Counted from the first letter of the stretch, positions 6,962 through 16,938 are shown. The stretch is DNA of 64,000 nucleotides from an uncultured Ignisphaera sp. (GCA_938074605.1 CALJEI010000001.1:1-64000), one strand, 5' to 3'. The notes: generated by a model from the sequence alone, not told the origin. Program-made: numbers and translations.

Positions 6962-8326
6962 TTATTGAGGAGCCTTTAGAATCTCATCTAGAAATCTTGC
7001 AAATAACTCAATCAGCTTTTTTGCCTGCACCCTTGAATGTATCATCGATGGCATTAGGTGAGGCATTTTTTCAGAGAGATATAGTATTCTGTTGATTCTC
7101 ATAAATAGATGGAGTGCTTCATAGACCTTGCTACTATATCGTAAATAATATGCATCCTCTATACTCCTAGGCTTTGATTTTGTGAAATGAATACCTATCA
7201 TACTTCCAACATTTGTGATCCAGCAGGGTCTGCCATACTCCCCACACAGTCTATCCATTTCTTTAGCTACACTACTCCACATCTCATTAAAAACACCATA
7301 TTTTTCTCTATTCCTACTAAGGTAATCAACTAGTGTAAAGCCTGCTACAATAGTTATCGGATTTCCCGTAAACGTACCACCATGGAAGCTTCTAGTTCTA
7401 GACTCTGGATATCTTGTATGATTAAGTAGAGCCATTATCTCCTCTTTCCCACCAAATGCTCCTGCTCCCGGCATCCCTCCACCAATTATCTTACCCATAG
7501 TGATTATATCTGCCCTTACATTAAAATACTCTTGTGCTCCCCCTAATGAAAGTCTAAATCCTGTGATCACCTCATCAAATATTAATAGAGAACCATACCT
7601 ATCTGCAAGTTCCCTAACACCCTTTAGATAACCCTCTAAAGGCTCTATACACCCACCTGCTCCAGGTACAGGCTCTATTATAATAGCAGCTACATCGTAC
7701 GTCTTTAAAGCTCTCTCCATATCATTCAAATCATTATAGGAGACAGATACCGTATATCTAATTAGATCCTCTGGTAAGCCAGCTGATTCAGGTCCTGAAA
7801 ATGGTGGTGAAACTGCTGTATGGAGCTGATCTAGACCTCCATGCCAACCCCCTCTAATCTTAATAACATATCTCTTTTTTGTATATGCTCTAGCAAGTCT
7901 TATTGCATACATATTAGCCTCAGTTCCACTATTAGTAAATCTAACCATATCACAATTTGGTACTAGTTTTGTTAAAAGCTCAGCATATTCTACTGCATAA
8001 ATATTCTCAAACCCAAAATGGGTCCCATGCTTTGCAACCTCGTATATTCTATCAATAATAAAGTCAGGTGAATGACCTAGAATGTGAGCTCCGTGACCCA
8101 TCCAATAATCGTCATATCTATTTCCATCAACATCCCAAACAAAGGTATCTTTAGCTCTAACTATATAGAGAGGATAGGGATTGAAGAATCTTATATGATA
8201 TACTACGCCTCCAGGTAGAAACCTACTAGCCCTCTTTAAAACTTCTCTACTCTTACTAGCCATCTCATCATATACTTTAAGATATCTAGATATAAGTCTT
8301 TCAATATGCTGCTCAGATAATTCCAT
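6962..8326 (-). CDS. Class III PLP aminotransferase, glutamate-1-semialdehyde aminomutase-like
   Basis: A PLP enzyme of the aminotransferase III / HemL group. Visible hallmarks: FTNSGTEANMYAIRLARAYT (phosphate-binding and substrate loop), IRGGWHGG, LIFDEVITGFR with the PLP-pyridine Asp, TMGKIIGGGMP with the Schiff-base Lys, and SFHGGTFTGNPI. At 454 residues it is slightly longer than HemL (about 430), with an extra N-terminal segment. No other tetrapyrrole gene is near, so true HemL function is unproven; a related amino-group transfer is equally possible. ATG at 8326; no strong ribosome site is seen. Confidence 0.85.
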   Translation of the reverse strand: MELSEQHIERLISRYLKVYDEMASKSREVLKRASRFLPGGVVYHIRFFNPYPLYIVRAKDTFVWDVDGNRYDDYWMGHGAHILGHSPDFIIDRIYEVAKHGTHFGFENIYAVEYAELLTKLVPNCDMVRFTNSGTEANMYAIRLARAYTKKRYVIKIRGGWHGGLDQLHTAVSPPFSGPESAGLPEDLIRYTVSVSYNDLNDMERALKTYDVAAIIIEPVPGAGGCIEPLEGYLKGVRELADRYGSLLIFDEVITGFRLSLGGAQEYFNVRADIITMGKIIGGGMPGAGAFGGKEEIMALLNHTRYPESRTRSFHGGTFTGNPITIVAGFTLVDYLSRNREKYGVFNEMWSSVAKEMDRLCGEYGRPCWITNVGSMIGIHFTKSKPRSIEDAYYLRYSSKVYEALHLFMRINRILYLSEKMPHLMPSMIHSRVQAKKLIELFARFLDEILKAPQ

Positions 8327-8780: not shown

Positions 8781-9443
8781 TTAAAAAGCCTTTATAGCAT
8801 TCTGTCTAGCTATACTAACCAGTAACTTTTTTAGTTGTGTTATAAAATCCTTTTTATTCCAATTGAGATAGAGCTCTATACCATCAATCACAATTGGTAT
8901 TAACCTTATTTTGCTTCTCCATGTATTGCTGAGCTGTTTTGAAAATATATCAACTATCTGCTCCCCATTAATTAATGGTTTTACCCCCTTAATTCTATAG
9001 ATAGCATAGATGGCGGTATAGATTATTATGGTTCTAGCTGCAGCTTCACTGAGTCTATAGTTCACTCTATACTTTATAGAACCCCCTGGTGGCTCATCTA
9101 AGCATATAGCTGGTATTTTTTTAAGTGTTATAGCTATACTACTGCTATATCTATCAATTTTAATTATATCGCTGATTCTTGGTAGAACCTTACACGCTTT
9201 AACCACCACAATATTAACACCACTAAGAGCCCTTTCAATACTTTCCAACTCCCTTTCACAATATTCCTCAATACTCCGAAACAATTCCTTCATAAGTTCA
9301 TCATAATTAATATTAATTGAAAATACATCCCTCATAAATGGTATGATATCTGTATTGATAAGCCGACTTGCTATATTATCTGTATATGCAGCAACCCTTA
9401 GGGGGCAACAACCAGTAAAAGGACAATATATAAGTCTAGGCAT
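8781..9443 (-). CDS. Hypothetical protein with N-terminal Cys motif, 220 aa
   Basis: Not recognised. The N-terminus MPRLIYCPFTGCCP places Cys at residues 7, 12 and 13. Further Cys lie in EEYCERE, VVKACKVLP and AICLDEPPGG, a pattern that could bind a metal or an Fe-S cluster. The middle has a Rossmann-like strand (VNIVVVKACKVLP), and the C-terminal half is helical and basic. No signal peptide or membrane helix. It stands alone between two long intergenic stretches, downstream of the symporter module on the same strand. A real gene is likely from its length and steady codon use; function is unknown. Confidence 0.6.
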   Translation of the reverse strand: MPRLIYCPFTGCCPLRVAAYTDNIASRLINTDIIPFMRDVFSININYDELMKELFRSIEEYCERELESIERALSGVNIVVVKACKVLPRISDIIKIDRYSSSIAITLKKIPAICLDEPPGGSIKYRVNYRLSEAAARTIIIYTAIYAIYRIKGVKPLINGEQIVDIFSKQLSNTWRSKIRLIPIVIDGIELYLNWNKKDFITQLKKLLVSIARQNAIKAF

Positions 9444-9816: not shown

Positions 9817-11283
9817 CTACTTACTGTCAACTATTAATATAGACATAGTGGCTAATGTGGAGCCCAGCAATATCCATATAGGTGATGGCAGTGAGAGTAT
9901 TAGGGGTGCTGTTAATGCTTTTGAAACTCCATGCATAATTACTGAATATATTAAGATGGATTCGCCTACTAATATGGAGACTATTGGGTAGAGAAGACCC
10001 CTACCCTTTTTCATAGATATTCTTTTAACTATGCCTGCTATTGTTATTGGTGCTAGGGGGAGTAGTCCTGCAGATGATATTACTGAAAGCTCTACTATGT
10101 ACCCTATTCTCATTACACCTATTAGTGAAGCTAATGTGAGGAGTATAAGTATTGCTGTTACTGATATTGTTTTTGAGAGTTTTTCATTTAGTTTAGTGGT
10201 AAGCCTTTCATAGAGATCTCTTACTATTGAGCTTGATACAGTTAAAACAATAGAGTTTGCTGTTGATATTGCTGCTGCTACTATACTTACATAAACTATA
10301 GCTGCTAGAAGAGGGTGTGATAATGTTAGCATATATGGTGTTACAGAATCTCTATTCTTTAGAAGTACGGCCTCCACCTCTTTATTGTTTAAAGCTATAT
10401 AGCATCTAAACGCCATTCCAAGGAATACACATATAACAGTATATATAAAGCCATACAATGCAAAGTATCTAACAGTCCTTGTATAAGCCTTTTCATCCCT
10501 AGGTATATAGAGTCTTTGAACAACCTGTGGATTTGTTAATGCAAAGAATATCCACGGTACTGTAAGGCCTAGAAACATTTGAGGACTCCATGTAAATGAC
10601 AATAGATTACCACTAGAGCTATTGGTAAGAATCCCAACAAAAGTATTATAGTCTACACCACTCGATGGTAAAAGGAATGCTATTACCCATATTATAACCG
10701 CCATGCTCGATCCTAGCATCCATAGTCCTTGGAAAGCATCTGTTATAGCAACACTCCATAGACCTGCTATAAGCGTCCAGAATGCAATTGCTATAAATGC
10801 AAATAATACACCATATTCATACCCTAGACCAATAGAGTTGAATATCTCTCCAATACCCTTAAACTGTGCTGCTACATATGGTACTAACATAAATAGGTAT
10901 AGCAAAGCCGTAATTACACCAACAATTCTAGAGCCATATAGATCTGAAAGCATTTCAGATGGACTTACCCATCCTTTCCTTCTAGCCTCATACCATATGA
11001 TTGGCCCTATAGATCCTAATATAATAATGGTTGAAGCTAAATAAGCTAGTTCAAAACCTAAAGCAGCAATACCACTTGCAAAAGTTAATCCAACCAATCC
11101 AACCATCATAAAAGCACTATAAGTTGTTGCAGCATAGGTCATTGCAGATATAAGTCCACCAACTCTATAGCCCCCTACAAAAAATTCTTTAGAGCCCTTG
11201 CCAAGATATTTTCTACTTAGCCAAGCTAGCATAGATCCTATTACAAAAAACAGAAGTAGAACAGTAGTAAATAGTTCCTTCAC
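9817..11283 (-). CDS. Sodium:solute symporter family (SSS) permease
   Basis: A 488-residue membrane protein with about 13 hydrophobic segments and SSS features: GYRVGGLISAMTYAATTYSAFM near the N-terminus, GWVSPSEMLSDLYGS, LIAGLWSVAITDAFQG (sodium-site region) and IVAAAISTANSIVLTVSSSIVRDLY near helix 8. It would import a small organic solute with Na+, substrate unknown (pantothenate, proline and carboxylates are known SSS substrates). The GTG start overlaps the stop of the upstream small membrane gene by four bases (GTGA), so the two are translationally coupled and probably one transporter. The operator palindrome at 11490 and the divergent regulator suggest ligand-controlled expression. Confidence 0.9.
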   Translation of the reverse strand: MKELFTTVLLLFFVIGSMLAWLSRKYLGKGSKEFFVGGYRVGGLISAMTYAATTYSAFMMVGLVGLTFASGIAALGFELAYLASTIIILGSIGPIIWYEARRKGWVSPSEMLSDLYGSRIVGVITALLYLFMLVPYVAAQFKGIGEIFNSIGLGYEYGVLFAFIAIAFWTLIAGLWSVAITDAFQGLWMLGSSMAVIIWVIAFLLPSSGVDYNTFVGILTNSSSGNLLSFTWSPQMFLGLTVPWIFFALTNPQVVQRLYIPRDEKAYTRTVRYFALYGFIYTVICVFLGMAFRCYIALNNKEVEAVLLKNRDSVTPYMLTLSHPLLAAIVYVSIVAAAISTANSIVLTVSSSIVRDLYERLTTKLNEKLSKTISVTAILILLTLASLIGVMRIGYIVELSVISSAGLLPLAPITIAGIVKRISMKKGRGLLYPIVSILVGESILIYSVIMHGVSKALTAPLILSLPSPIWILLGSTLATMSILIVDSK

Positions 11284-11471
11284 CTAGCCCCACCACCAAA
11301 CATTTTTTCTAAAATTTTGAATCCTATAAGTATAGAGAGTAGCGTTAAAAGGATCCAATATAGTGCTACCCCAAATTTAGTAAGACCCATCATTATTTCT
11401 GAAAACCATTTAAACATTGGGATATAAAATAGTATTACAATTAGTATAGCTAAGATCATCATAGTTTTCAT
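11280..11471 (-). CDS. Small two-helix membrane protein, partner of the SSS symporter
   Basis: A 63-residue protein with two hydrophobic helices (MMILAILIVILFYIPMF and LYWILLTLLSILIGFKILE). Many SSS permeases are preceded by such a small membrane subunit (for example YhdT or DUF3311 types); I cannot say which family this belongs to. GGTGGG at about 11477-11482 precedes the ATG. Its stop overlaps the GTG start of the symporter by four bases. First gene of the operon directly downstream of the 11490-11507 palindrome. Confidence 0.75.
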   Translation of the reverse strand: MKTMMILAILIVILFYIPMFKWFSEIMMGLTKFGVALYWILLTLLSILIGFKILEKMFGGGAR

Positions 11472-11489
11472 TCTCGCCCACCTATGAAC

Positions 11490-11507
11490 GTTCGTTTACA
11501 AACGAAC
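11490..11507. promoter_or_regulatory. Perfect palindrome, likely operator of the symporter operon
   Basis: GTTCGTTTACAAACGAAC: 8-base arms with a 2-base spacer, perfect. It sits between the divergent symporter operon (start 11471) and the regulator gene (start 11566). For the minus strand a TATA-like CTTATAAA (about 11511-11520) lies just upstream, so a protein bound here would cover the region between TATA box and start of the symporter transcript. For the regulator it lies upstream of its TATA box. The natural candidate binder is the product of 11566-12573. Confidence 0.7.
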
Positions 11508-11515
11508 AGTTTATA

Positions 11516-11529
11516 AGCTTTATATATAA
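11516..11529 (+). promoter_or_regulatory. TATA box of the regulator gene
   Basis: GCTTTATATATAAA lies about 36-50 bases before the ATG at 11566, the right distance for a transcript start near 11550 and a short leader. Confidence 0.5.
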
Positions 11530-11565
11530 AATTTATGTAAAAACAGCAAATAGGGAAGCTCTAGA

Positions 11566-12573
11566 ATGTCTTTAGAGCTTTTTCAGAAAATCCTTGATAT
11601 ACTTGCTAAAAATCCCAATGGAGTACCACAGTCATATTTGTATAGAGCATTAGGTGTTTCTAAGGCATATATAAGCATGGTTTTAAGAAATATGGAGAGA
11701 TGTGGTATGGTCTACAGAGTCAGGGTTGGAAATTCATACATGGTTAAACTAGCTAGTAAGACTCTGCAAATCAGTAAGAGGCTAAAGCTCGGTATTGTAT
11801 GGTCAAGCGAGTATCTATTTCTAGGACACTTTGCTAAAGCTCTTAAAGATAAACTTGATATGGATATTACGGTCAATGTATATCCTAGTGCGCTACAGGC
11901 TACACTAGCTATTATTATGGGGGAGGTAGATGCTGTACTCAGTCCACTAGTTACACAACTATATGCATATATTCTAGCTAGAAACATGGTGATAGTTAGT
12001 GGTGGTGCTGGTGGTGGTGCTAAAATATATGAGTTTCCTAAAAGTAGATCAAATACCATAGTGTCTAGTGAAATTTCGACAATGGATTTCTGTAGATTGA
12101 TTGCAGGAAAAAAGAGGATAGTAGAATATGAAGGGGTAAGATACTTTACTACACCCAGTGAAGCAATAGAGATTATTAAGATGGGTAAAGCAAGATATGC
12201 AGTTTTATGGCATCCTCTAACAGAGTATATCAAATCTATAGAACATAGTGTAGTTGTAGAGTGCAGTGAATTTGAGGAATTGAAGCATTGCTGTACTTTG
12301 GCTATAGCAAGAAGCATTGGTATAGAAATGATTGAGAAGGTTGCAGATATATATAGAAGTGCCATTGATGAATTTTTGAAACAACCCTTAAAGTATTTAG
12401 AGTGGTACTCATCAATAACAGGAATAGATATAGCTCTGCTTAAAAAGGCATTAAATGTCTATACCTATACATCTGAAATTGATATCAAAAGTGTTGATAG
12501 AGTTATAGAGACACTTAATTTGAGCATTCCACAAAAGAGTATCATATTCAATGCTATTCTATCTCACATCTAA
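11566..12573 (+). CDS. Transcriptional regulator: winged HTH plus substrate-binding-protein-like domain
   Basis: Residues 1-65 form a winged helix-turn-helix of MarR/ArsR style (GVPQSYLYRALGVSKAYISM, recognition helix SKAYISMVLRNME, wing YRVRVGNSYMV). From about residue 70 a second domain resembles type 2 periplasmic binding proteins without a signal peptide: LKLGIVWSSEYLFLGHFAKAL, then EVDAVLSPLVTQLYAY, VIVSGGAGGGAKIYEFP, and an RYAVLWHPLTEY segment. This suggests direct sensing of a small ligand in the cytoplasm, in the general way LysR and ModE proteins do but with a different HTH. Divergent from the SSS operon across a perfect palindrome, so it most likely controls that uptake system and senses its substrate. 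Confidence 0.8.
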   Translation: MSLELFQKILDILAKNPNGVPQSYLYRALGVSKAYISMVLRNMERCGMVYRVRVGNSYMVKLASKTLQISKRLKLGIVWSSEYLFLGHFAKALKDKLDMDITVNVYPSALQATLAIIMGEVDAVLSPLVTQLYAYILARNMVIVSGGAGGGAKIYEFPKSRSNTIVSSEISTMDFCRLIAGKKRIVEYEGVRYFTTPSEAIEIIKMGKARYAVLWHPLTEYIKSIEHSVVVECSEFEELKHCCTLAIARSIGIEMIEKVADIYRSAIDEFLKQPLKYLEWYSSITGIDIALLKKALNVYTYTSEIDIKSVDRVIETLNLSIPQKSIIFNAILSHI

Positions 12574-12595: not shown

Positions 12596-13564
12596 CTATT
12601 TTTCATAGAGCCAGCACTTAACCTTCACACCATTTACTATAAACTCTAGTGGTGTCTGCTCAAAGCACTTCTTCATAGCATTGGGACATCTACTAGCATA
12701 CTTACATCCCTTTGCAAGAAATTCTTTTTCTTCTATTGATGTCGTCAATTTTATCGCTTTTAACCACTTCTCCCTCCATTTAGGATCTGGCATAGGTGCT
12801 GATAGTAGCAGTGTTTGTGTATATGGATGTAGAGGTTCAGTAAATACTTTCTCTACGGGTCCCTGCTCAACAATCCACCCCCTATACATAATGGCTATAT
12901 AGTCACTTATATAGTAAGCAGTTGAAAGGTCATGTGTAATATACATGAATGATATCTTAAGGTCATCTTTAAACTCCTTAAATAGATTTACTATAGTTAC
13001 CCTAAGTGATGCATCAAGCATTGAAACAGGTTCATCTGCTATTATAAGCCTCGGTCTTGTAATCAGTGCTCTGGCAACTGATACTCTTTGCAGCTCCCCC
13101 CCAGAGAATTCTGATGGATACCTACCTTTAACCTTCTCTAAGCTTAGCCCAACTCTCTTAAGGACCTCCTCTATGTTAGCTTCAATCTCATTTTCACTAA
13201 TTTTTGCAACATTTTTAGCTGTTTCATAAAGATAGTCATAAACTTTTTTTAGTGGATTAAAAGATGCATAGGGATCCTGGAATACTGCCTGCACCTCCTT
13301 TCTAAACCATATTAGGTCCTCCCCCTTAAGCCTGTGTATATTTCTACCCCGGTATAGAATTTCACCATATTCTGGTGTATGGACACCTAGAATTATCCTT
13401 GCTAAAGTTGTTTTTCCTGAACCACTTTCACCAGCAACTGTAAATATAAATGGTTTATCCTCAAGAGTTAGCGACACATTATCTACGGCCTTAAATTCAA
13501 ATCCAAATAATCCATATCTAAATATCTTTGAAATATTCTTTACCTCGAGTAGGACGCTACTCAT
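12596..13564 (-). CDS. Oligopeptide-type ABC transporter ATPase (OppF/DppF-like)
   Basis: ATP-binding subunit of the peptide/nickel importer family. Walker A GESGSGKTT, Q-loop AVFQDPYASFNPL, signature SGGELQRVSVARAL, Walker B LIIADEPVSMLD and switch His ITHDLS are intact. The C-terminus has the oligopeptide-family extension HPYTQTLL and GCKYASRCPNAMKKC, whose Cys cluster may carry Fe-S or metal. The frame opens at 13594, but the ATG at 13564 is preceded by AGGTGAT at the right spacing and is preferred. It follows the OppD-like gene by five bases. Permeases and binding protein are absent here, so this pair must work with subunits coded elsewhere, or the cluster has been split. Confidence 0.9.
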   Translation of the reverse strand: MSSVLLEVKNISKIFRYGLFGFEFKAVDNVSLTLEDKPFIFTVAGESGSGKTTLARIILGVHTPEYGEILYRGRNIHRLKGEDLIWFRKEVQAVFQDPYASFNPLKKVYDYLYETAKNVAKISENEIEANIEEVLKRVGLSLEKVKGRYPSEFSGGELQRVSVARALITRPRLIIADEPVSMLDASLRVTIVNLFKEFKDDLKISFMYITHDLSTAYYISDYIAIMYRGWIVEQGPVEKVFTEPLHPYTQTLLLSAPMPDPKWREKWLKAIKLTTSIEEKEFLAKGCKYASRCPNAMKKCFEQTPLEFIVNGVKVKCWLYEK

Positions 13565-13569
13565 ATAAA

Positions 13570-14589
13570 TCACCTTTTCACATATAGCCAGCACGAAACA
13601 AATCTCTCTTTACCAATTTTAATTATAGGAGGTTCCTCCCTTCTACAAATATCCATAGCATAAGAGCATCTAGGATGAAACCTACAGCCAGGAGGAGGAT
13701 TGATGAGGTCTGGTGGCTGTCCTGCTAACCCTCTTCTAAGTGTCTTATCGCCTATTCTTGGCAGTGACTCTATCAATGCCTTAGTATATGGGTGCAGGGG
13801 ATCCTCAAATATATCATTAGTTGCTCCTAGCTCTACCCCCTTGCCAGCATACATAATTAGAATCCTATTTGTAACCATAGCTTGAACACCCATATCATGA
13901 GTCACCAATATCAGGGTATTTCTTAACTCCCTCTGTTTATCTAATAGCATCTGTAAAACACCTCTTTGGACAACAACATCTACAGCTGTTGTAGGTTCAT
14001 CAGCTAGCACAACTCTTGGTTTAAGCATAAGGGCAAGAGTAATGACAACCCTTTGCCTCATACCGCCAGAGAGTTGATGTGGATATGCATTTAAAATCTC
14101 TTTACTAAGCCCAACACTCTCTACATATTCTCTAGCCATCTTATATGCCTCATCAATGTCTACATCTATATGTGTTCTAATAGTTTCAATAAAATGTTCG
14201 CGTATCCTTTGAATTGGATTTAGCACATTCATAGAATTCTGTGGGATATAGGATATATACCTCCACCATATAGATGTTCTATCCTTTAGAGTCAGTATGT
14301 CAATGGTTTGTTCATTAATCTTGAGAATAACATTTCCTTTCTTTACTATAAGTGGGGGTTTTGTATATCCATATAAAATTTTTAGAAGCGTAGATTTACC
14401 ACAGCCAGATTCACCAGCTATCCCAAGAACCTCATCATTCTTTGCATAAAAATTTACATCATTTACTGCATCAACATAAGCGAAATTGCTATTAATAATA
14501 ATACTGTACCCCCCAGTCAAGTTGGCAACATTCAATACTGTATCTGAGACCGCTAATGCTACTCTATTAACCATCTCCTCTTTTATCAT
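13570..14589 (-). CDS. Oligopeptide-type ABC transporter ATPase (OppD/DppD-like)
   Basis: Companion ATPase. Walker A GESGCGKST, Q-loop YIPQNSMNVLNP, signature SGGMRQRVVITLALML, Walker B VVLADEPTTAVD and VTHDMGVQ are intact; the C-terminal HPYTKALIESLP plus PPGCRFHPRCSYAMDIC is the OppD tail with its Cys motif. GGTGG lies six bases before ATG 14589; the TTG three bases earlier (14592) would be too close. First gene of the two-gene operon. In related importers the two ATPases follow two permeases; here the upstream side is a 250-base gap and a divergent sugar kinase. Confidence 0.9.
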   Translation of the reverse strand: MIKEEMVNRVALAVSDTVLNVANLTGGYSIIINSNFAYVDAVNDVNFYAKNDEVLGIAGESGCGKSTLLKILYGYTKPPLIVKKGNVILKINEQTIDILTLKDRTSIWWRYISYIPQNSMNVLNPIQRIREHFIETIRTHIDVDIDEAYKMAREYVESVGLSKEILNAYPHQLSGGMRQRVVITLALMLKPRVVLADEPTTAVDVVVQRGVLQMLLDKQRELRNTLILVTHDMGVQAMVTNRILIMYAGKGVELGATNDIFEDPLHPYTKALIESLPRIGDKTLRRGLAGQPPDLINPPPGCRFHPRCSYAMDICRREEPPIIKIGKERFVSCWLYVKR

Positions 14590-14842
14590 CAAAATCCACC
14601 ACTATTATATCGAATATTTAGCTTTAAAAATTTATTGTTTGTCCATAGTATATATTAGCTTCACACAACCATGATAGCTAAAGATAATTAAAAGGTGCCA
14701 CCATTGCGCATTTAATATCATTCCATCTATTTTAAAATTATATGTGCTCTCTATCTTCATATACAATTACAATATAGTTTTAATTATTTTAACTAAAATT
14801 TTAAATTCTAACTATTGGTATATAAAGGACATGGTGTAGATA

Positions 14843-15868
14843 ATGGTTGTACCCATAGTATTGACTGGTGTAGCTGTATGCGACATTATAATTGCTGGTC
14901 TTGAACGAATAGCAGAACCTGGCGACATAGTATATGTCTCAGGATTTTCATCCATAGAGATTGGTGGTCATCCATGTAACATATCCATAAATCTTGCTAA
15001 AATGGGCTATAGAATTCATGATGTTATTGCTGTTAGTTCTATTGGTAGTGATCTTTGTGGTGAATTTATATTAAATATTCTTAGAGGATATGGTATTATA
15101 ACTGAATTCCAGATACATAAGGATGCTCGTAGTAATAAGAATGTTATTTTAGTTGTTAAGGGCGAGGATCGAAGATTTCATGTTGATGTAGATGCAACTA
15201 TTAAATTATCTCCAGATTATGTTATTGAAGTTATTAAGAGATATAGGCCTAGAGTATTCTATATAGCGCCTGGTCTCCTTGGCTATGTTGATGAAAATCT
15301 CAGAAATATCCTTATGATATCAAGGATGTATGGCGCTATAAATATGGTTGATGTAGCGGCTGCAAAACCTTTTGGAAGAAGGGACTGGGATTTTCTTATA
15401 AATTCGCTTGATAATACTGACATATTTCATGCAAATCTATATGAGGCTAGAAGGGTGTTTGATATAGATAGTATTGACAAAGCTATGAAAAGTATTCTTA
15501 GATTTGGCGTCAAAATAGCATTAATTACTGATGGCGAAAATGGTGCTTATCTTGCAAAGGACAACTACATAATATATCAACCAGCATTTAGAGTAGATGT
15601 TGTAGATCCTACTGGTGCTGGAGATGCTTTTCAGGCAGGCTTCATATACAAGCTTGTTGATATCTTAAAGGAAAATACGAATTTGTATAGTCTAGATAGC
15701 TTAGGGGTAGAGGAGCTAAAGCATATACTTCTGTGGGCCCAGGCCTCTGGAGCATCATGCGTAATGGGGATAGGAACTACATCAACAGTTTCTCAAGAAA
15801 ATATTAAACGTCTTATTTTAGATCAGGGGGATAGTATCCTAAAATCCACAAAAATATACACCATATAG
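14843..15868 (+). CDS. PfkB-family sugar or nucleoside kinase
   Basis: Ribokinase-fold kinase, 341 residues. The first PfkB signature region is present (SSIEIGGHPCNISINLAKMG), as is the second with catalytic Asp and anion hole, VDPTGAGDAFQAGF. The central part carries NMVDVAAAKPFG and ALITDGENGAYLA. The substrate cannot be told from sequence; a sugar (KDG, fructose) or nucleoside is possible. ATG 14843 is the first usable start, because an ATG at 14831 runs into a stop at once. Convergent with a second PfkB kinase about 100 bases away; the two are not close copies. Confidence 0.87.
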   Translation: MVVPIVLTGVAVCDIIIAGLERIAEPGDIVYVSGFSSIEIGGHPCNISINLAKMGYRIHDVIAVSSIGSDLCGEFILNILRGYGIITEFQIHKDARSNKNVILVVKGEDRRFHVDVDATIKLSPDYVIEVIKRYRPRVFYIAPGLLGYVDENLRNILMISRMYGAINMVDVAAAKPFGRRDWDFLINSLDNTDIFHANLYEARRVFDIDSIDKAMKSILRFGVKIALITDGENGAYLAKDNYIIYQPAFRVDVVDPTGAGDAFQAGFIYKLVDILKENTNLYSLDSLGVEELKHILLWAQASGASCVMGIGTTSTVSQENIKRLILDQGDSILKSTKIYTI

Positions 15869-15963: not shown

Positions 15964-16920
15964 CTATAGCTTTTGTGATCCAACAAACTCCTCTAGTTCA
16001 CTTCTTCTTGGAAATGCTGTTACCGCACCTCTTCTAAGGCATTTAAGTGCTCCTGCTGCATTTGCATACTTTATAGATGTTTCAACATCTCTATTCTCCA
16101 AAATGTGATAGACTATAAATGTTGCTGTCCATGCGTCTCCAGCACCAGTTGTATCTACAGGCTCTATTCTATAGGCTGGTACATATACCTCTTCCTTTCT
16201 TGTGGCTACATATGACCCCTTTGACCCAAGCCTTATAGCAACAATGTCTATATTTGGATATCTCTCCATAACACTTCTAGCAACATATACATAGTCTCTA
16301 AAGCCAAACATATTCTCAATTTCGTCAAGCCCCATTGTAAGTATTGTTGAAACTTTTATGTATTTATCCATATACATTAGGGCTTTACTACCACTGCCCC
16401 ATATATCCTGCCTATAATTTGGGTCAATAGATATCTGAAGCCCCGCCTCAAATGCCATCTTCATGACTGTATACACAGCTTCGCTAAGAGGTGGATAGGC
16501 AGTAGCTACACCAGAAACATGCACTACCCTAGCCTTTAGAACCTCATCTAGGTTAATATCATTGGCACTAAGCATTGTATCTGCTGTTTTTACCCATGGC
16601 TCTCTATAGAAAAAGAAATCTCTTTCACCACCTTCATGCAAAACAACAAATGCCAGGCTTGTTCTTGCCTTTTTTCTTATAAGCCACCTAGTATCAACTC
16701 CTTCACGCTCAAGAAAATCCTCTAGCATATCCCCAAAAGGATCCTCCCCAACAGCGCCAATAAAAGCTGATCTTTGCCCAAGTCTAGCTACACCAACAGC
16801 AACATTAGCCGGCGCACCACCAAAATGTATTTCAAACCTTAACCCATCCCTATAAACACTAACTTCAGTAGGTATTACATCAACAAGTATCTCACCCATA
16901 CAAATTACATCAATAGCCAT
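15964..16920 (-). CDS. PfkB-family carbohydrate kinase (fructokinase / KDG kinase-like)
   Basis: Ribokinase-fold kinase of about 318 residues. It begins MAIDVICMGEILVDVIP, followed by FGGAPANVAVGVARLGQ (sugar-binding signature), ISIDPNYRQDIWG and VDTTGAGDAWTATF (ATP site with catalytic Asp). The ..DPNYR.. stretch is typical of fructokinases and 2-keto-3-deoxygluconate kinases, which would suit the uronate and Entner-Doudoroff gene content of the window. The frame opens six codons earlier (16938), but ATG 16920 has GGGA about seven bases before it and gives the usual family N-terminus. Confidence 0.88.
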   Translation of the reverse strand: MAIDVICMGEILVDVIPTEVSVYRDGLRFEIHFGGAPANVAVGVARLGQRSAFIGAVGEDPFGDMLEDFLEREGVDTRWLIRKKARTSLAFVVLHEGGERDFFFYREPWVKTADTMLSANDINLDEVLKARVVHVSGVATAYPPLSEAVYTVMKMAFEAGLQISIDPNYRQDIWGSGSKALMYMDKYIKVSTILTMGLDEIENMFGFRDYVYVARSVMERYPNIDIVAIRLGSKGSYVATRKEEVYVPAYRIEPVDTTGAGDAWTATFIVYHILENRDVETSIKYANAAGALKCLRRGAVTAFPRRSELEEFVGSQKL

Positions 16921-16938
16921 TAGAGATTCCCAAACCAT

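Follow-up and report, generated by a model that had tools for sequence, protein, structure and literature searches.

LysR-type regulators carry an N-terminal winged helix-turn-helix (HTH) followed by a C-terminal type 2 binding-protein fold, and a regulator of the same general layout is encoded at the archaeal locus described here; its HTH, however, is MarR/DUF7343-like, and its C-terminal domain, of about 265 aa, matches solute-binding proteins of the SsuA/THI5 type, so the use of a type 2 binding-protein fold for cytoplasmic sensing, joined to a MarR-like HTH, would make for a design unlike that of LysR. The SsuA, TauA and THI5 (NMT1) solute-binding proteins have the same fold, whereas here it is fused to an HTH, comes without a signal segment and is partnered by a sodium:solute symporter (SSS) instead of an ABC importer.

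As for the control of NAD supply, the bacterial niacin repressor NiaR (HTH plus 3H domain) represses niacin uptake and NAD genes (niaX, nadC and pnuC in S. pneumoniae; PMC5343564), and in the model proposed below the regulator would work alike, although it is archaeal, has a type 2 binding-protein fold for a sensor in place of the 3H domain and goes with a different transporter family. The Nudix-related NAD regulator, NrtR, controls de novo NAD genes (PMC6800001), and it is likewise at de novo NAD genes that we place the present regulator, which, however, lacks a Nudix domain and has its HTH at the N-terminus. No HTH was found in the Nudix proteins of Sulfolobus acidocaldarius, where strains with Nudix deletions show a joint rise of nadA and nadB, a response to which no regulator was assigned (PMC10311068), and whole-word NAD, quinolinate or nadA is absent from the main text of the regulatory-network paper on S. 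acidocaldarius (PMC8578740). On the transport side, human SMCT1 (SLC5, SSS superfamily) carries nicotinate with sodium at low affinity (Km about 0.4 mM; PMC11037918); this human protein and the archaeal symporter are members of the same superfamily. Neither a description of the present regulator nor one of any NAD-metabolism regulator for these archaea was found in the literature searched, most subscription papers and regulon databases being outside reach, and, as far as found, a control circuit for NAD supply had not been described before in these archaea.

Layout of the locus and fold of the regulator

The stretch of DNA analysed (the window) comprises 64,000 nucleotides from an uncultured Ignisphaera sp., a heat-loving archaeon (GCA_938074605.1, CALJEI010000001.1:1-64000), and its features of interest are the following:

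9817..11283, - strand: SSS (sodium:solute symporter) permease, GTG start, 488 aa, PF00474 match
11280..11471, - strand: 63-aa small membrane protein with two hydrophobic helices, from ORF reading, overlapping the symporter
11485..11500, no strand: conserved operator core of the AAC-N4-GTT type, TGAACGTTCGTTTACA, matching elements found ahead of the small ORF and ahead of nadA within the genus
11490..11507, no strand: inverted repeat GTTCGTTT-AC-AAACGAAC, similar repeats lying 5' of the small ORF in several same-family relatives
11510..11517, - strand: TATA-like box serving the small ORF/symporter operon, read as CTTATAAA on the - strand, from sequence and aligned orthologous promoters
11566..12573, + strand: regulator, winged HTH plus type 2 periplasmic-binding-protein-like domain, 335 aa
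11566..11751, + strand: winged HTH domain, regulator residues 1-62, MarR_2/DUF7343 above cut-off and AlphaFold model
11773..12570, + strand: type 2 binding-protein-like domain, residues 70-335, SsuA/THI5/TauA-like by Foldseek against the PDB

The unit as a whole is real, conserved and functionally interpretable, while its operation, substrate and ligand are predicted. An earlier note, made from the sequence, had read the start of this arrangement correctly: a two-helix protein overlaps an SSS permease by four bases, as bases 11280-11283 (GTGA) are common to both ORFs. The same holds for the divergent winged-HTH protein whose C-terminal domain was said to look like a type 2 solute-binding protein, as structure prediction, set beforehand as the test, did produce that fold. 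The AlphaFold model of the regulator (26 aligned sequences; pLDDT 92.1, pTM 0.76) consists of an N-terminal winged HTH (helices 3-15, 22-29 and 33-45, wing 49-62) and a large alpha/beta domain, and residues 8-62 match the DUF7343/MarR_2 HTH above cut-off in the Pfam scan, which gave no match to the LysR HTH or to the 3H domain of NiaR and no Pfam domain for the C-terminus; the Nudix-like sensor domain of NrtR was not matched in the regulator either, a binding-protein fold taking its place. The top PDB matches of the C-terminal domain in Foldseek were 3ksx, 3e4r, 2x26, 6ssy and 4esx, the best-matching proteins being SsuA, TauA, Thi5 and PqqT (binders of alkanesulfonate, taurine and a thiamine precursor among them), with E 4e-14 and a TM of 0.74 of target for SsuA 3ksx and 825 structure matches at E<=0.001 altogether, and a sequence profile matched solute-binding protein 3un6 over residues 69-264 (E 0.004). 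A fumarase returned by a single-sequence PDB search of the regulator was dismissed as noise, and no leading hydrophobic signal segment was seen in the protein.

The residues invariant in the alignment (E82, Y83, P127, G147, G150, G151, S171, M173, P217, C242, C243 and Y299; a second alignment gave nearly the same list) sit in their majority within the binding-protein domain, which would be consistent with a conserved ligand. The regulator is single-copy in the window's genome, and its family occurs, mainly as a single copy, in 115 of the 197 genomes of the order, named relatives being Ignisphaera, Zestosphaera, Fervidicoccus, Pyrodictiaceae, Hyperthermus and Candidatus Aramenus; phylum-wide matches below about 60 bits, which mainly covered the HTH alone, were left out of the counts. 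Scanning contigs with the single regulator protein recovered no relatives, whereas the alignment query did recover them.

The symporter matches PF00474 (SSF) with 101.7 bits over residues 34-404 (cut-off 22.8), its transport presumably being Na+-coupled, and orthologs are present in 93 of the 197 genomes (E<=1e-40). The 63-aa protein, for which the Pfam scan gave no domain, is probably an accessory subunit of the symporter, and small hydrophobic ORFs are found 5' of the symporter in most related loci, both within and outside the order. Symporter and regulator adjoin each other divergently in 21 of the 29 best-matching related loci, mostly with a small hydrophobic ORF in between, and the same order (symporter divergent from regulator, small ORF between) recurs in eight of the nine loci read outside the order (families f14, f33, f34, f38 and f41), the exception being L235, whose symporter match is weak, partial and same-strand.

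Around this unit, the window also holds two ABC transporter ATPases (12596-14592, - strand; oligopeptide Opp/Dpp type by eye) that are convergent with the regulator and adjoin it in the nearest relative (L002/L125), though not in more distant ones. Further out are a class III aminotransferase resembling glutamate-1-semialdehyde aminomutase (6962-8326, - strand; 346 of 527 bits and thus under the HemL cut-offs), a 220-aa ORF with no Pfam or NCBIfam match (8781-9443, - strand) and two adjoining related sugar-kinase-like genes, PfkB-type by eye, on opposite strands (14843-15868, +, and 15964-16938, -).

The inverted repeat and the conserved operator

What had been noticed as a perfect 18-base palindrome is slightly less than that, its 8-base arms being perfect and its central AC non-palindromic, and it lies where it was said to lie, i.e., between the TATA-like box of the symporter operon (11510-11517) and the operon's start, the small ORF beginning at 11471. 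The bare palindrome at 11490-11507 is no rarer than chance and not significant in its own right (14 inverted repeats of comparable quality in the window versus 8-18 in Markov shuffles), and since such repeats are not rare in this AT-rich window, the case for it must rest on conservation. The equal frequency of such repeats in shuffled sequence is what could make one regard the palindrome as a chance inverted repeat within an accidental neighbourhood, yet this is extremely improbable, being contradicted by the recurrence of both the arrangement and the operator position in many families. A palindromic operator is conserved upstream of the orthologous operons, just as the earlier note's proposal implied, and because it is found at the same position in these related operons, the repeat is more than a product of chance.

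The operator common to the regulator/symporter intergenic regions is CCGAAC-ANNT-GTTCGG, its order-wide form being CCGAACANNTGTTCGG and its cross-family core AAC-N4-GTT, which is kept even in the variants seen before the symporter in two f5 loci (GGAAACAATTGTTTCC in L049, GAAACATATGTTTC in L043). In the window, the core at 11485-11500 overlaps the palindrome, the exact repeat of which turns out to be a lineage-specific form. In aligned orthologous promoters, the operator centre follows an A/T-rich TATA-like block by about 18 bp on the symporter side, and the small ORF begins just 3' of the operator. Given these two neighbours, and going by archaeal promoter anatomy, the operator is expected to overlie the point at which transcription of the symporter operon begins, and a protein bound there would act as a repressor.

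Within the window's own family, the operator has drifted. The nadA promoters of the window's genus carry TTAAACGTTTGTTTAA (G034, G098) or a near form of it (G024), and a TTAAACGTTTGTTTAA-type element, in opposite strand reading, is found in the symporter promoters of the genus just before the small ORF. When ten genomes were searched for AAACGTTYGTTTA, four of the five exact matches lay at nadA or the symporter, as did several one-mismatch matches, including that at 11486-11498 of the window, and the conserved core in the window is placed at about 11485-11500 because matches of this type mark nadA and symporter promoters. Related repeats, such as GTTTGTATGTGTACAAAC in G068, point to a likely role for the longer repeat, too, in this family. 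Allowing up to three mismatches to the window's exact repeat gave many chance matches within the family, controls being as numerous, with only the symporter site being exact in G000, and an exact f1-type site in contig C1 of G024 was taken as chance, as it falls inside an ORF.

The operator at NAD genes of relatives

Among the 197 genomes searched, exact CGAACANNTGTTCG was found at 59 sites in 45 genomes, which is no clear genome-wide excess over the reversed-pattern control, and it is the location of these sites, not their frequency, that is striking as evidence for an operator: 46 of them were tallied at the symporter/regulator or at nadA/nadB/nadC, with two at an isochorismatase-family gene, two at transporter genes and nine without assignment. 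Most of the sites in the Sulfolobaceae-like family f11 (Candidatus Aramenus being the named Sulfolobaceae relative) are situated before or between nadA, nadB and nadC, and no symporter match was found in that family at the threshold used (E<=1e-40). G129 (f9) has two sites, of which one marks the regulator/symporter and the other nadA-nadC-nadX. In G010, a nadA-nadC-nadX operon adjoins the regulator gene itself, the two being divergent with TTGAACAAGTGTTCAA in between, and in G098, of the window's genus, such an operon is convergent with the regulator. The self-contained sensing and uptake unit proposed by the earlier note is, thus, supported as an overall interpretation but drawn too narrowly, as in relatives the operator is also found at nadA/nadB/nadC and at an amidase gene.

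Several further observations concern the same neighbourhoods. In G034, nadX of nadA-nadC-nadX has next to it a remnant of the regulator's C-terminal part (L158, 5666-5911, - strand), a full-length copy being encoded elsewhere in that genome; this suggests that the regulator has moved away from the nad operon. Three f11 genomes (L092, L115 and L124) have two radical SAM genes directly 5' of nadB, ending just before the operator. In the f11 genomes G066 and G096 (L095 and L099), the exact operator has an MFS transporter gene on one side and an amino-acid-permease-like gene on the other, both being candidate alternative importers of an NAD precursor or aspartate. The regulator's neighbours in f11 (folE, pepQ, moaA and glnA) were set aside as a regulon, the exact operator being at nad genes instead. 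In part of the window's genus (L031-L034), a regulator apart from the symporter is often located just 5' of a 1-Cys peroxiredoxin gene and near nreA, which possibly reflects an extra link to redox control or simple relocation; the peroxiredoxin and NreA genes were also considered as regulon members and set aside.

A matrix built from 15 symporter-side sites only was run on nadA promoters, the window's family, where this order-wide matrix fails to recognise the operator, being kept outside the main comparison. The median nadA promoter score was 19.9 in the 23 genomes with the regulator versus -5.3 in the 19 without it (Mann-Whitney p 6e-8, indicative only, because the genomes are related and 17 of the 23 come from f11), and the scores separate likewise within f2, f9, f10 and f11, each of which holds genomes both with and without the regulator. 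Low scores (-4.4 to 3.8) are seen for the three f5 genomes that have the regulator, their operator being a variant, e.g., GGAGAACAATTGTTCTCG. The nadA operator sites are, then, present where the regulator is present and absent where it is absent. As there are several MarR-like HTH proteins in the genomes of this phylum, it might be argued that the regulator acts locally on the symporter only and that another MarR-type protein binds the palindrome at the nad genes; this seems quite improbable, however, given that the nadA operator is found only where the regulator family is, also inside single families, and that the regulator sits beside nad operons in G010 and G098.

Judged by an operator common to NAD-precursor synthesis genes and the symporter, the putative role of which is uptake, the regulator would belong to the functional class of niacin/NAD-responsive regulators. 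The winged HTH would bind the short palindromic operator over the expected start of symporter-operon transcription (in relatives, the operator likewise overlaps the expected start of the nad genes), and transcription would be blocked as long as an NAD-pathway metabolite occupies the cytoplasmic binding-protein-like domain; once the precursor becomes scarce, the repressor would release and the SSS symporter, together with its small partner, would import the precursor. That the regulator might be an activator instead, or respond to some downstream signal (NAD+, ADP-ribose, quinolinate or NMN, for example) and not to the imported precursor, is compatible with the rest of this scheme and represents a lesser, though serious, possibility: the binding-protein fold family takes many ligands, organic acids and phosphonates included, the bacterial NrtR answers to ADP-ribose, and nadA/nadB are up in an S. 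acidocaldarius double mutant devoid of a known and a probable ADP-ribose hydrolase (PMC10311068), while the location of the operator 3' of the TATA-like box, over the expected start site, fits repression rather than activation. Repression by the regulator at the nad genes is a claim that can be tested directly, because the genetically tractable Sulfolobus belongs to the group with the operator at these genes.

NAD-precursor supply and the symporter substrate

With the operator placed at NAD genes, we infer that the imported solute can be narrowed to an NAD precursor, and it is plausible that the regulator senses exactly the solute that the symporter imports. nadA was not found in the window's genome (a 97.8% complete draft, in which an absence could be a gap); present are nicotinate phosphoribosyltransferase (pncB) and a protein of nicotinamidase type in which the motifs RDWHPPNH and WPPH occur. 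The precursor would most likely be nicotinate, feeding the phosphoribosyltransferase, or, alternatively, nicotinamide, which the genome's nicotinamidase would then convert. In 118 high-quality genomes, nine have both symporter and nadA, 50 the symporter only, 33 nadA only and 26 neither, i.e., the two show a tendency towards mutual exclusion (odds ratio 0.14, p 6e-6, with no correction for relatedness), which fits an importer replacing de novo synthesis. Genomes devoid of nadA keep pncB, often along with the symporter, as would be expected for a niacin-type importer.

The named models nearest to the symporter by sequence are those of pantothenate (PanF) and proline (PutP) transporters, and this, together with the operator near MFS and amino-acid-permease genes in G066 and G096, could be taken to mean that the regulator does control NAD genes while the symporter carries some other compound, such as pantothenate or an amino acid, e.g., aspartate, itself an input of the NAD pathway. 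This seems unlikely, as every named model is far under its equivalog cut-off (PanF 85.8 of 328, PutP 66.6 of 515.5 and MctP 49.1 of 625 bits), symporter and nadA are largely alternative to each other, and the nadA-less genomes retain pncB, often with the symporter, in the way a niacin-type importer would have it.

We therefore hold, with a good deal of confidence, to the reading of the unit as a one-component module for the control and uptake of an NAD precursor of the vitamin B3 type, in which the regulator is a repressor and the symporter imports nicotinate or a relative. Rather likely, too, is the broader reading of an undescribed archaeal family of NAD-homeostasis regulators (MarR-like HTH plus SsuA/THI5-type domain) controlling nadA/nadB/nadC and niacin uptake, with the SSS symporter as the missing importer, assisted by the small partner subunit; its scope would be NAD synthesis in Sulfolobaceae-like archaea and niacin uptake in their nadA-less relatives. 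The source of NAD precursors in the genomes without nadA is an open annotation gap that is addressed hereby, with a mostly single-copy regulator family being tied to NAD-precursor supply and a common orphan symporter being given a testable substrate class.

The amidase gene mentioned above belongs to two f4 genomes (G015 and G026), where an operator site is found at the start of an isochorismatase-family gene, the product of which is an amidase within the nicotinamidase superfamily. The G015 product shares 33% identity with the nicotinamidase-type protein of the window's genome, and its closest PDB match is an N-carbamoylsarcosine amidase-related protein; the f4 gene may, accordingly, encode another kind of amidase.
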